From assembly GCA_015521765.1 (NCBI GenBank), contig WANO01000074.1, forward strand, positions 1-39,887: a DNA stretch of 39,887 nucleotides. Reading direction: 5' to 3'. A program made the position numbers and the translations under genes. A model generated the notes under the pieces. The model was not told where the DNA came from. It did not search any database and worked only from the letters and a program-made list of their open reading frames with translations. The stretch comes from Desulfurococcales archaeon. Its GTDB lineage: Archaea; Thermoproteota; Thermoprotei_A; Sulfolobales; AG1. Shown here one piece after another: positions 3,014 to 27,577 of this stretch. The stretch's first letter is position 1, and every line of letters begins with the position of its first letter.

Positions 3014-3346
3014 TTAACACTCGCATGATTCTTTTAGGAGGTTCAGCACCCTATTCAAAACCTCCTCATCCGGGACCTCCTGCTCGAAATACAGTAGTGT
3101 TTTCAGCTCATCGATTGTTTTGGGGCATATATTGATTATCTGTGCGGAAGTTATCTCTCTAAACCCCATCTCAACAAGCTCGTTAAAGATTTTTTCCGAG
3201 AGGTCTGGAGGACACTTAGAGATCTGCTCGCTGTATTCCAGCACCCTCTTCTGGAGATCCCCGGCCTCCCCCTCGCTTATCCTGTCCCTAGTCAGTATCT
3301 TCCTTATAAGCGCTATGGGTATCTCCTTAAAGTTGATTATCTTCAT
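3014..3346 (-). CDS. rpoF: RNA polymerase subunit F (Rpo4/Rpb4)
   Basis: This is the 110-aa stalk subunit of archaeal RNA polymerase. It pairs with Rpo7 to form the stalk that helps promoter melting and holds nascent RNA. The whole length resembles the Rpb4 HRDC-like fold. The conserved features are the helical SEQISKCPPDLSEKIFNELV segment and the later EITSAQIINICPKTIDEL. The start ATG at 3346 has a GAGGAG Shine-Dalgarno sequence 6 nt upstream, inside the end of the L21e gene region. It lies between L21e and DUF655, the usual archaeal order. Confidence 0.92.
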   Translation of the reverse strand: MKIINFKEIPIALIRKILTRDRISEGEAGDLQKRVLEYSEQISKCPPDLSEKIFNELVEMGFREITSAQIINICPKTIDELKTLLYFEQEVPDEEVLNRVLNLLKESCEC

Positions 3347-3357
3347 AGCCGGCTCCT

Positions 3358-3750
3358 CTACTTAGCCCTGGCTATAATCTCTTTAGCCTCCTGGATCTTG
3401 CTCCTTACCTCCTCAATAAGCTTCTTCGACTCCGAGACAACCCTCTCCCAAACCTCAGGTGTCGGTTTCACATGCTCCTGCCTTGTATACAGTATCTTCT
3501 TCTTATCCCCCAGATACACCTCGACGACAAGGGATCTGCCTCTATACCCCACAACGGTTCCTGTTTTTCCCTGGAACCTCCTGTGGGGCATTCCCTTATG
3601 GATTGCTGGGTTTATATCTATATGAACCTTGTCTCCAACCCTATAATCGATCATGAGCAGACTCAGTGGAGGTACAGCACCCCTCTCCCTAACCCTTTTT
3701 CTCAGGAGCTTTCTTGTTCTATGCCTATAACCCTTTGGCGCCTTAACCAT
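3358..3750 (-). CDS. rpl21e: 50S ribosomal protein L21e
   Basis: This is a 130-aa archaeal/eukaryotic large-subunit protein. It begins MVKAPKGYRHRTRKLLRK and carries the SH3-like core with VGDKVHIDINPAIHKGMPHR and GKTGTVVGYRGRSLVVEV. The frame can be extended to 3774 through two earlier Met codons. The ATG at 3750 is preferred for two reasons: the family starts with this sequence, and the box A at about 3780-3788 would place transcription start near 3758. The C-terminal 40 residues form a charged helix beyond the core. It is the first gene of the operon that runs to aroK. Confidence 0.95.
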   Translation of the reverse strand: MVKAPKGYRHRTRKLLRKRVRERGAVPPLSLLMIDYRVGDKVHIDINPAIHKGMPHRRFQGKTGTVVGYRGRSLVVEVYLGDKKKILYTRQEHVKPTPEVWERVVSESKKLIEEVRSKIQEAKEIIARAK

Positions 3751-3779
3751 CCAGATTACACCACTAATCATCAAATAAT

Positions 3780-3816: not shown

Positions 3817-5115
3817 TTGTGGCTGATGCTTTTGGGTAGCGGTATTCTGGATCAGGCTGTTGAGGTGATTAAAAACTACCCGCTCTGCGACCGTTGCCTA
3901 GGTAGGCTGTTCGCTAGTTTAGGGACCGGACTAACCAATGTTGAGAGGGGGTTGTCTCTCAAGATTCTTATAGCTATGCATATCCACAGCAGGATTGTGG
4001 CTGGTGAGGACGCCTATATGGATCTGCTTAAGCAGCTATCTATAAATGCTGGGGGTCCCTTCCTTAAGCTGTATAGGAAGCTCTCTAATGAGGAGGTGCC
4101 CGGTAGACTCACATGCTATATCTGTGGTGATCGGTTCAGTGATGTTGTTGAGGAGTATGTGGAGAAGGTTGCCAAGATCCTGAGGTCCTACGATGTGGAG
4201 ACTTTTCTTATTGGGTTCCGAGACCCCGTGGAGATGGAGGAGGCTCAGCAGGAGATTGTTGATAGGTTCAGGCTTGAGCATTGGGAGAAGGTTAAAGAGG
4301 AGCTTAAGAGGGAGATCGGTAAAGCTGTAATGTCTAGATATGGCTACAGGGCTAAGTATGAGGATCCCGATGTTGTTGTTGAGATAGATCCTGTTAGGGA
4401 TGAGGTTAGAGCGGTATTCCCCTCTGAAATATATGTCGCTAGGCTCAGGAAGTACGCTAGGGATCTTCATATAGACTCCAAGGCCCTCTACGGCAACTCC
4501 ATTGAGTCTGTATTGTCTGAGAAGGCGTCGGGTGTTTTTGAGGCTGAGTACATATCTATTAAACCATCTGCAAGGATCTATCCGGGGTATAGAGTTATAG
4601 GCTCGGGCCTTTCCGTGTCTGTTGAGATACACAGCCCAAAGCGAAGGTTTCGTGATGTGAAGTCTGTTGAGGATGCCCTAAATATAGATCCTGAAAGGTA
4701 TTCTCTCGAGATCATTTCTAGAGTTAGAAGAAGAAATATCGGTGAGCTAGGCGGCTATATCAGGAGGATAGTGTATAGGGTTCTAGTGCATTTCGATTCT
4801 GAATGCATTAGGGATAAAGCGGTGGAGGATGTGGCGGAAAAAATATATGGGTTGAGCTCGGAGGTTATTGCCCAGAGGACCCCCAGCAGGATGCTTAGAT
4901 GGAAGTATGATTATACGAGGTATGGCAGGGTGAAGGTGGTAGACGTTCTTGGCGTCTCCAGGGGTCTTTTTGAGGTTGTTTTGGTTTCCGATAAGAACCT
5001 ATATATCGAGGAGGTTGTGTCTGGCGACTATGGCAGGACGGATCCGAGTGTTTCCAGCGTTGTTGGTTGTGGGGCTACGCCTGTTAAGATAGATGTCTTG
5101 GGTGCTGAGCACTAG
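3817..5115 (+). CDS. pus10: Pus10-family tRNA pseudouridine synthase homologue with a degenerate active site
   Basis: Archaeal Pus10 makes pseudouridine 55, and in some species 54, in tRNA. The 432-aa product is full length. It has the N-terminal cysteine cluster (YPLCDRCLGRLFA plus CYICGD) of the accessory THUMP-containing domain, the KYARDL segment, and the C-terminal RTPSRMLRWK and VSGDYGRTDPSV motifs. The catalytic motif, normally GREDxDxRxLGxGRPF, aligns without gaps with ARIYPGYRVIGSGLSV (residues about 252-267). The motif's two aspartates become Tyr255 and Gly257, and RPF is lost. The fold and RNA-binding parts look intact but catalysis as known looks impossible. The start is TTG at 3817 or ATG at 3826; the box A favours a leaderless or near-leaderless start at either. 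Confidence 0.85.
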   Translation: MWLMLLGSGILDQAVEVIKNYPLCDRCLGRLFASLGTGLTNVERGLSLKILIAMHIHSRIVAGEDAYMDLLKQLSINAGGPFLKLYRKLSNEEVPGRLTCYICGDRFSDVVEEYVEKVAKILRSYDVETFLIGFRDPVEMEEAQQEIVDRFRLEHWEKVKEELKREIGKAVMSRYGYRAKYEDPDVVVEIDPVRDEVRAVFPSEIYVARLRKYARDLHIDSKALYGNSIESVLSEKASGVFEAEYISIKPSARIYPGYRVIGSGLSVSVEIHSPKRRFRDVKSVEDALNIDPERYSLEIISRVRRRNIGELGGYIRRIVYRVLVHFDSECIRDKAVEDVAEKIYGLSSEVIAQRTPSRMLRWKYDYTRYGRVKVVDVLGVSRGLFEVVLVSDKNLYIEEVVSGDYGRTDPSVSSVVGCGATPVKIDVLGAEH

Positions 5116-5196: not shown

Positions 5197-5595
5197 ATGA
5201 GCAAGACATATGCTGAACTCGGTAGCTTGAGGACGGGTAGCTTCATAATTATTGATGGTGAGCCATGCAGGATTGTTGAGATTTCGAAGGCTAAGACCGG
5301 TAAGCACGGCTCCGCTAAAGCCCATGTTGTGGCTATGTCGCTTCTGTCTGGAGCCAAAAAGACGCTTGTTGCCCCTGTAGACACCAGGGTTGAGGTGCCT
5401 ATTGTTGATAAGAGAACTGCCCAGGTTATCTCCGTTATGGGCGATACAGTGCAGATTATGGATATGGAGACCTTCGAGACCTTCGAGGTTGAGATACCTA
5501 AGGATGAGGAGCTCGCCAAAAGGCTGGAGCAGGGCAAGGAGGTCGAGTACTGGGTTATTATGGATAAGAGAGTTATCATGAATGTTAGGGGCTAG
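5197..5595 (+). CDS. eif5a: Translation initiation factor 5A (aIF5A, hypusine-containing)
   Basis: This factor stimulates peptide-bond formation at difficult sites and requires hypusine on one lysine. The 132-aa product has the N-terminal KOW-like domain and a C-terminal OB fold. The hypusination loop is [14 protein letters not shown], so the modified residue should be Lys36. The length is usual for archaea. The ATG at 5197 follows a GGTGGTGG leader. The gene ends 2 nt before the srp54 start, so both are likely on one transcript. Confidence 0.96.
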
Positions 5596-5597
5596 TT

Positions 5598-6953
5598 TTG
5601 AGGGGTTTCGAGAGCGTTAGGGAGGCTATAGCTAGGTTTATAAAGGGTTCTGATCCTTTTAACCAGGCTATTGAGAACCTCGTTAAGGATCTTCAGAAAG
5701 CACTGATTAAGGCGGATGTTAATGTTAGGATAGTTTTTGATCTTACCAGAAAGATTAGGGAGGACGCCAGAAAGAGCCAGCCTCCACCTGGTATATCTAG
5801 AAAGGACTGGTTCATCAAGATAGTTTACGATCGCCTAGCCGAGCTCTTCGGGGGCGATGTCCAGCCCTCTGTAGCTCCTCCAAAGCAGCCTTATGTAATA
5901 TTGATGGTGGGTGTCCAGGGATCTGGCAAGACAACGACATGCGGCAAGCTTGCCTACTTCTATAAGAAGATGGGGTATAGCCCATGCCTTATTGCTGCAG
6001 ATACCTATAGGCCTGGTGCGTATGATCAGCTGAAGCAGATCGCTGAGCGTGTCGGGGTCCCTATATATGGTGATCCTGGTGAGAAGGATCCTGTGAAGAT
6101 CGTTGAGAAGGGCATGAGGACCCTCACAGAGAACAATAGGTGTAATATAATAATCATCGATACCGCAGGTAGACACGGCTATGGCTCCGAAGAGTCTCTA
6201 CTTAAGGAGATGAGGGAGATAGCAGATCGATCTAACCCCGACGAGGTCATGCTTGTTATAGACGCGTCTATAGGCCAAAAAGCATATGATCTGGCTAAGA
6301 GGTTCCATGAAGCCACACCGATAGGCTCTATAATAGTAACCAAGCTGGATGGCTCGGCTAAGGGTGGCGGGGCGTTATCCGCTGTGGCGGCTACTGGGGC
6401 CAGAATAAAGTTTATTGGTGTTGGCGAGAAGATCGATGAGCTCGAGGTCTTTAACCCACGCAGGTTTGTGGGTAGATTGCTTGGGCTGGGAGATATTGAG
6501 GGTTTGATTGAGAAGTTCAAGTCTCTTGAGGAGCGTGAGGAGCTTGAGCGTATGATGAGGAAGGCTTTAGCTACTGGCAAGATCACTATGGTGGATCTGT
6601 ATCACCAGATCAAAAGCATAACTAAGCTGGGGCCGTTAAGCAGGATCCTCCAGATGATACCTGGTTTATCCGCGCTACCCATAATGGAGGATCAGGTTAA
6701 GCTTAGCGAGAAGAAGATGCGTAGGTGGCTCAATATAATGGATTCTATGACCTATGACGAGCTTAAGAATCCAAAGATAATTACCAGGAGCAGGATCGTG
6801 AGGATAGCTAGGGGGTCCGGCAGCTCTATAGATGAGGTTAAGGAGCTTCTGAGATACTATGAGAACATCAATAGATTCATGAGGGATGCACGTAGAAAGC
6901 GTAAGCTCCTCGAGAGGCTTAAGGGCTTAGAGGATCTTCCCGAATTTAGCTAG
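5598..6953 (+). CDS. srp54: Signal recognition particle GTPase SRP54 (Ffh)
   Basis: This SRP subunit binds hydrophobic signal sequences and SRP RNA helix 8 and docks to FtsY by a GTPase cycle. The 451-aa product has an N-terminal helical N domain. The G domain carries the P-loop VGVQGSGKTTTCGK, DTYRPGAYDQLKQ, DTAGRHG and TKLDGSAKGGGALS. The methionine-rich M domain contains GPLSRILQMIPGL and the RNA-binding SRIVRIARGSGSS. The start is TTG at 5598, 2 nt after the eIF5A stop. The SRP RNA gene is in this window at 23599-23907. Confidence 0.97.
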   Translation: MRGFESVREAIARFIKGSDPFNQAIENLVKDLQKALIKADVNVRIVFDLTRKIREDARKSQPPPGISRKDWFIKIVYDRLAELFGGDVQPSVAPPKQPYVILMVGVQGSGKTTTCGKLAYFYKKMGYSPCLIAADTYRPGAYDQLKQIAERVGVPIYGDPGEKDPVKIVEKGMRTLTENNRCNIIIIDTAGRHGYGSEESLLKEMREIADRSNPDEVMLVIDASIGQKAYDLAKRFHEATPIGSIIVTKLDGSAKGGGALSAVAATGARIKFIGVGEKIDELEVFNPRRFVGRLLGLGDIEGLIEKFKSLEEREELERMMRKALATGKITMVDLYHQIKSITKLGPLSRILQMIPGLSALPIMEDQVKLSEKKMRRWLNIMDSMTYDELKNPKIITRSRIVRIARGSGSSIDEVKELLRYYENINRFMRDARRKRKLLERLKGLEDLPEFS

Positions 6954-6991: not shown

Positions 6992-7717
6992 GTGGAGCAT
7001 ATAGCTCGAGATAGAAGGCTTAGGCTCGTGATCGTGGGTATTGAGGGAGCCATAAACCTCGGCTTCATAATCAGATTGGCATATAACTTTGATGTGGACG
7101 ATCTCTATCTAGTAGACCCCAAGGTGGATGTATCAGACGATGAGGTGAGGAGGTTCGCTGCTAGAGGGAAGGAGTATATAGGGAATGTGAGGGTTGCGGC
7201 CTCGATGGATGATGCTATCGAAGGTATGGATCTTGTTGCATGCACCTCGGCTATTGTCCCCAGCAGAAGAGATCCGCTACGCCAAGCCATCGAGCTAAGG
7301 GATTTCGTTGATGTAGCTAGAAAATATAGGTCGCTTGCCCTTGTTTTCGGTAGAGAGAGCACGGGGCTTACGAGGAGAGAGCTTGAGAAATGCAACCTGT
7401 ATATCCACATAAGGGCTGGCAGGAGATACCCTGTACTTAATCTCTCGCATGCTGTTGCTGTTGCCTTATATGAGCTCTATGATCTATATAGAGGCGACAG
7501 CAGTTTTGAGGGTGTGTATATAGATAGAGATATATTAGGGAGGGTTATGCAGAAGGTTAGTGAGATCGTTGGGCTTCTTCAGGTTAGTGGTGATAGGGCT
7601 GAATGGATCCTTAAAAGCATCGAGAGGATATTATATACATCGAAAGGTTCGAGTAATGATTTTATGAGCTTGCTGTTCTTTATGAACAGGATTCTGTCTA
7701 GAATTAAAAGATCCTAG
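6992..7717 (+). CDS. SPOUT/TrmH-family tRNA 2'-O-methyltransferase, TrmJ-like
   Basis: This is a SAM-dependent ribose methylase with a trefoil-knot fold. The 241-aa product has the three SpoU motifs. Motif 1 is around EGAINLGFIIRLAYNF with the N and R expected for catalysis. Motif 2 is LVFGRESTGLT, and motif 3 is YPVLNLSHAVAVALYELY. The C-terminal helical extension resembles TrmJ, which in archaea methylates C32 of tRNA. The target is inferred. The start is GTG at 6992, 38 bases after srp54. Confidence 0.82.
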   Translation: MEHIARDRRLRLVIVGIEGAINLGFIIRLAYNFDVDDLYLVDPKVDVSDDEVRRFAARGKEYIGNVRVAASMDDAIEGMDLVACTSAIVPSRRDPLRQAIELRDFVDVARKYRSLALVFGRESTGLTRRELEKCNLYIHIRAGRRYPVLNLSHAVAVALYELYDLYRGDSSFEGVYIDRDILGRVMQKVSEIVGLLQVSGDRAEWILKSIERILYTSKGSSNDFMSLLFFMNRILSRIKRS

Positions 7718-27424: not shown

Positions 27425-27525
27425 GCCGGGGTGGCCGAGTGGACTAAGGCGGCGGGCTGCAGTGGGACAGTGGTATACCGCCCGTGTAGACCCGTTGTTC
27501 GCGGGTTCGAATCCCGCCCCCGGCT
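27425..27525 (+). tRNA. tRNA-Cys(GCA) with a 27-nt intron
   Basis: The acceptor stem is GCCGGGG/CCCCGGC (27425-27431/27518-27524) with discriminator T27525, the identity base of tRNA-Cys. The D stem is GCC/GGC. The T arm is GCGGG-TTCGAAT-CCCGC (27501-27517). The anticodon stem GCGGG/CCCGT (27452-27456/27491-27495) and loop CTGCAGA form only if 27463-27489 is removed. A bulge-helix-bulge fits well: a 3-nt bulge 27461-27463, a weak central helix (27458-27460 with 27484-27486, two of the pairs G-U), a 3-nt bulge 27488-27490, and an inner helix GGG/CCC. The mature tRNA is 74 nt. No CCA is encoded. Confidence 0.93.
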
Positions 27526-27577
27526 CTTCATCACTTGCTTGTGATATTTATATCAGTAGTTAGCTAATTTTATCTTG

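Follow-up and report, generated by a model that had tools for sequence, protein, structure and literature searches.

P0001 is a 432 aa protein encoded on the forward strand (3817-5115, TTG start) of the window, the whole stretch of 39,887 nucleotides of Desulfurococcales DNA that was analysed. By its sequence, it is a homologue of Pus10. It scores 236.1 bits against the NCBIfam Pus10 model TIGR01213, for which the curated cut-off is 200, and in this collection it matches only Pus10-type pseudouridine synthase models. In Pfam, two regions are recognised: the archaeal Pus10 THUMP domain (Pus10_THUMP_arc, PF22023, 68.5 bits, residues 114-191; 4156-4389) and the Pus10_C region with the pseudouridine synthase fold (PF21238, 77.8 bits, residues 218-428; 4468-5100). 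Their order, THUMP and then Pus10_C, is that of the Pus10 family. Pfam matches are confined to Pus10 families, and TruB_N with its G-x-LDP signature is not among them. The sequence-only reading had described the Cys cluster and two C-terminal motifs as kept, and all of them are present. The Cys pairs C24-x-x-C27 (zinc-type, 3886-3897) and C100-x-x-C103 (4114-4125) are invariant in a 22-row alignment, and comparison with active Pus10s reveals RTPSRML (4876-4896) and SGDYGRTDPS (5020-5049), all on the forward strand.

In most families of the order, pus10 is part of the cluster aIF5A-SRP54-pus10-L21e-rpoF-DUF655-ksgA-TrmJ. The window contains these genes as well, locally rearranged, as determined by synteny. 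On the reverse strand lie the genes for ribosomal protein L21e, the ancestral pus10 neighbour (3358-3774), RNA polymerase subunit F (rpoF, 3014-3346), a DUF655 protein (2282-2977) and a ksgA/dimA-type rRNA dimethyltransferase (1461-2288). The forward strand carries aIF5A (5197-5595), SRP54 (5598-6953) and a TrmJ-like SPOUT methyltransferase (6992-7717). The dimethyltransferase and the TrmJ-like protein were named by recognition. Because the gene occupies the ancestral cluster, P0001 is the original Pus10 and not a paralogue. A tree of the N-terminal half, from which the degenerate domain was excluded, places f1, a GTDB-type family of six genomes including that of the window, beside the active enzymes of family f3 (98/91). 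Synteny and this tree led us to reject a degenerate paralogue beside an intact original. In the other f1 genera, pus10 is located elsewhere.

P0001 has the domain order, the Cys pairs, the THUMP domain, the C-terminal motifs and the neighbourhood in common with archaeal Pus10 (TIGR01213, COG1258), but differs from it in the loss of the GREDxD nucleophile, the GRP arginine and the SQxxW loop, and in the absence of the partner TrmY. Motif II of P0001 is degenerate: It has SARIYPGYRVIGSGLSV (4567-4617, forward strand) in place of AGREDxDxRxLGxGRP, as seen in alignments to active Pus10s, which in this order have (A)AGREDxDxRxLGxGRPx. The claim that the alignment runs through this block without gaps holds both for hhalign with the f1 family profile against active Pus10s (E 5.7e-96) and for hmmsearch against human PUS10 2v9k (E 6.4e-26). 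The three replacements named from the sequence were found as well. Tyr255 (4579-4581, forward strand) occupies in profile alignments the position of the nucleophilic Asp, which corresponds by alignment to Asp344 of human PUS10. Gly257 stands for the second Asp of GREDxD (D257G) and Leu265 for the Arg of GRP, so that GLS replaces GRP. In addition, the acidic neighbour of the nucleophile is gone (E254I), and the SQxxW loop preceding motif II is lost (S218H, W222K). Fifty-five residues are near-universal in active Pus10s, 16 in the zinc/THUMP half and 39 in the catalytic half. P0001 keeps 15 of the former and 23 of the latter. A newly conserved acidic residue near motif II was not found in f1; E270, E399 and D404 are conserved in this family, but they are common to active enzymes, too. 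An AlphaFold2 model of the catalytic domain, built from two sequences only, has a pLDDT of 31. To our knowledge, all pseudouridine synthase families require the Asp of motif II. With the nucleophilic Asp, its acidic neighbours, the GRP arginine and the SQxxW loop gone, P0001 should be unable to isomerise uridine, and we strongly infer that it is catalytically inactive.

A sister genome, G001, encodes the same gene with 96% identity, and its motif reads SARIYPEYRVIGPGLSV. G001 is a Desulfurococcales MAG (public contig JALXCO010000174.1) and the sole match in a scan of genome contigs. Since this independent MAG encodes the same motif, a read error, named from the outset as a possible refutation, is ruled out, and four further f1 members agree with it. 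The homologue has a full-length open frame in all six f1 genomes. Between the window and G001, dN/dS is 0.090 for the whole gene, 0.099 for residues 1-210 and 0.083 for residues 211-432, compared to 0 to 0.04 for the neighbour genes. This means that the pus10 homologue is less constrained than its neighbours, yet clearly under purifying selection, the catalytic half included. A pseudogene was rejected on the basis of the dN/dS of 0.09. As selection on the catalytic domain equals that on the N-terminal half, this domain does something specific beyond RNA binding by THUMP.

A Pus10 without nucleophile is found in 6/6 f1 genomes. The four further genomes, which belong to two other genera, have VRDTSRYRILG, IRDTSRYRILG, TRDSYRYRITD and ARDSRRYRILG, i.e. 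the nucleophile is replaced by Thr or Ser, and an Asp precedes it by one position; in the window's genus, this preceding Asp is lost, too. No second intact Pus10 was found in the window's genome, which is 63.6% complete. G001 (76% complete) as well as G002, G003 and G005 (94-97%) contain a single copy, which is dead. G004, also from f1, encodes a degenerate copy and an intact Pus10 with GREDIDARMLGTGRG. Phylogenetically, the intact copy is placed with family f5 (94/95); uniting it with the f1 copies in one clade is rejected (p-AU 0.036). On its contig, a single-copy NMD3-like gene adjoins the intact pus10. The best match of this gene is in G002 (51%), followed by other f1 genomes, and contamination as source of the intact copy was rejected because these best matches are all from f1. 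No remnant of an intact pus10 was found near NMD3 in G002 or G000. Lateral gain is the simplest reading for G004, since the intact copy groups with f5 and an f1 clade is rejected; judged by these trees, it looks like a local event.

A survey of 214 genomes from the order showed no intact motif in 31/31 genomes of f11, in 9/9 of two f5 genera and in 5/6 of f1, but it is nearly always present in the remaining families. By informal labels of our own, we take f11 to be Sulfolobaceae-like and the f5 genera to be Acidilobus-like and Caldisphaera-like. Read from the proteins, the nucleophile is lost in f1, f11, the two f5 genera and the phylum families f26, f16 and f20. The view of P0001 as something new for the Pus10 family, in the sense of a one-off, was therefore too narrow. 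Of the interpretation given in the sequence-only reading, the loss of catalysis and the retention of the tRNA-binding half stood, joined by purifying selection, while the one-off novelty and the use of another residue did not. Parsimony on the tree of the N-terminal half yields seven state changes. The hypothesis that f1, f11 and the f5 genera, the degenerate groups of the order, share one loss was rejected (p-AU 0.01), but f1 and f11 as one clade are not (p-AU 0.164). The data thus support at least two losses inside the order, and further losses beyond it, but no exact number. In f13, f41 and f45 (L157-L159, L162, L164), the motif is GGEDxxS instead of GREDxD, with the Asp kept and the Arg lost. 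Pus10 is absent, with only a Cbf5 cross-match, from G235 and G248 (f23) and probably from G338, G318, G365 and G374.

Like P0001, the divergent Sulfolobaceae-like Pus10s keep the N-terminal half and have lost the nucleophile, but their C-terminal domain is far more eroded, with 28 of the 39 universal residues lost and SGDxGRT absent. An example is the degenerate copy of G043, which we tentatively take to be S. acidocaldarius DSM 639. It directly adjoins SRP54 and is a positional orthologue located beside SRP54 and aIF5A. S. acidocaldarius has been described as devoid of Pus10, and the situation at position 54 in this species was termed perplexing (PMC7668247, PMC7912444). No description of degenerate crenarchaeal Pus10s was found in the literature on Pus10 evolution, which was covered in part, so that prior notice is possible.

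TrmY methylates pseudouridine 54 and, with this substrate, needs the product of Pus10. Within the order, TrmY occurs in 0/28 genomes with a dead and in 17/38 with an intact Pus10, and outside the order in 0/12 and 20/34, respectively, with Fisher tests on these counts ignoring relatedness. The cleanest contrast is provided by f5 (0/9 dead vs. 10/10 intact). G317 (f26), a TrmY-bearing genome in which the motif is ambiguous and the reading frame split, was excluded from the counts. As many intact lineages also lack TrmY, its absence can be called consistent with a loss of activity, and not more. Many genomes with an active Pus10 have, directly next to pus10, a short SPOUT-like gene of 160-217 aa with a weak PF04013 match, distinct from the main TrmY gene (G008:C5:22075, G018:C126:6611, G216:C6:369752, G230:C7:22276, G260:C1:286144, G335:C3:14180, G357:C27:2371, G397:C127:12601). 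Its product is a possible second partner of active Pus10.

Which enzyme makes pseudouridine 55 in such an organism had been asked from the sequence, and the question is a genuine one. In 351 kb of the window's genome, nine tRNAs are reported, and each of them has the T loop GGTTCRAA, i.e. U54-U55. ARAGORN assigns the tRNA genes at 417-514 and 27425-27526 of the window to tRNA-Pyl(cta) and tRNA-Cys(gca); both appear to contain an intron, and their anticodons appear to be misread. A search for TruB-type genes detected Cbf5/TruB_N in 23/23 genomes tested and no additional TruB-type gene in the same genomes. The catalytic motif GDPxVSG of the G000 Cbf5 is intact. In G000 and several relatives (L087 / G000:C48:2605-2919; L053, L058), cbf5 is interrupted just before the G-DPxVSG segment, presumably by the known crenarchaeal cbf5 intron, and the interrupted gene is reported by ORF finders as a gene of 260-280 aa. 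In the Caldisphaera-like genomes G053 and G069 (f5, g30; 99% complete), no TruD/Pus7 match was found, besides a dead Pus10. Cbf5, a TruB family member with a distant synthase fold and a weak score on the Pus10_C model, forms pseudouridine 55 guide-free in vitro (PMC6138745). In H. volcanii, pseudouridine 55 is formed mainly by an enzyme other than Cbf5 (PMC7912444). Pus10, which is essential in H. volcanii, is regarded as the genuine archaeal pseudouridine-55 enzyme (PMC7912444, PMC6138745). Cbf5 is a possible functional replacement; it is encoded by a separate gene and, unlike P0001, has its catalytic Asp intact. Most likely, it is Cbf5 that makes pseudouridine 55, if this is present, in the window's organism.

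With moderate confidence, we favour the reading that P0001 is a vertically inherited Pus10 turned RNA-binding pseudoenzyme, probably a factor that binds or folds the tRNA elbow. The vertical Pus10 of a Desulfurococcales-type lineage would have become a pseudoenzyme and would have retained its fold, composed of zinc module, THUMP and degenerate synthase domain. P0001 would still bind tRNA or a similar RNA, and it may bind or fold the tRNA elbow in a chaperone-like manner, as inactive TruB does in E. coli. Cbf5 with Nop10/Gar1 would most likely supply any pseudouridine 55 that is present. The putative chaperone role is based on analogy: Inactive TruB, a tRNA chaperone, rescues the fitness defect of truB (PMC11301382), and human PUS10 has a role in miRNA maturation independent of catalysis (PMC10439626). 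The tRNA chaperones TruB and TrmA and human PUS10 thus resemble the proposed P0001 in a catalysis-free function (PMC11301382, PMC10439626), but they keep their active sites, whereas that of P0001 was lost in nature.

The persistent association of the gene with ribosomal and translation genes, with L21e, aIF5A, SRP54 and KsgA as operon partners, and the selection on a catalytic domain whose active site is gone might also indicate that the dead Pus10 no longer serves tRNA and was recruited to another RNA or complex, e.g. in ribosome assembly or in a translation-factor function. However, active Pus10s have the same linkage, which therefore says nothing on a new role, and in other f1 genera the gene sits elsewhere. 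We consider such a recruitment rather unlikely. Less probable still is an intact Pus10 that was missed in the window's organism because of the incomplete assembly and accompanies the dead copy. The completeness of 63.6% and the presence of a dead and an intact copy in G004, on a genuine contig, would permit it, but the other four f1 relatives have one dead copy each, and the f5-type copy of G004 looks like a gain restricted to that genome.

That P0001 still isomerises uridine via another residue, as had also been suggested, is very improbable. The Pus10-specific C-terminal RTPxR and SGDxGRTxPS motifs remain, and the catalytic domain is under strong selection. However, the f1 family has acquired no conserved acidic residue near motif II that could support this suggestion, E254, D257 and R265 are gone together with the Asp, and, as far as we know, this Asp is needed by every synthase family. 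That the gene is a relic in decay or a product of faulty assembly is hardly credible: Many universal catalytic residues are lost, but the open frame in six genomes, the 96% identity in an independent MAG and the dN/dS of 0.09 refute this explanation.

The reading as an RNA-binding pseudoenzyme can be extended to a scenario for the Thermoproteota, which we put forward tentatively and with slightly more doubt than confidence. A dead but selected Pus10 may have arisen several times in this phylum, with Cbf5 making pseudouridine 55 without guide and with pseudouridine 54/m1-pseudouridine 54 abandoned; one f1 species would have laterally regained an active Pus10 and kept the dead one. The name 'tRNA pseudouridine(54/55) synthase' of the NCBIfam equivalog probably misdescribes the function of P0001, despite a score above the cut-off. 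For archaea with a dead Pus10, the prediction is that Cbf5 alone makes pseudouridine 55. The puzzling absence of Pus10 reported for S. acidocaldarius (PMC7668247) would be explained in part by the degenerate Sulfolobaceae-like Pus10. A Pus10 that is repeatedly dead yet conserved would separate binding from catalysis in nature.
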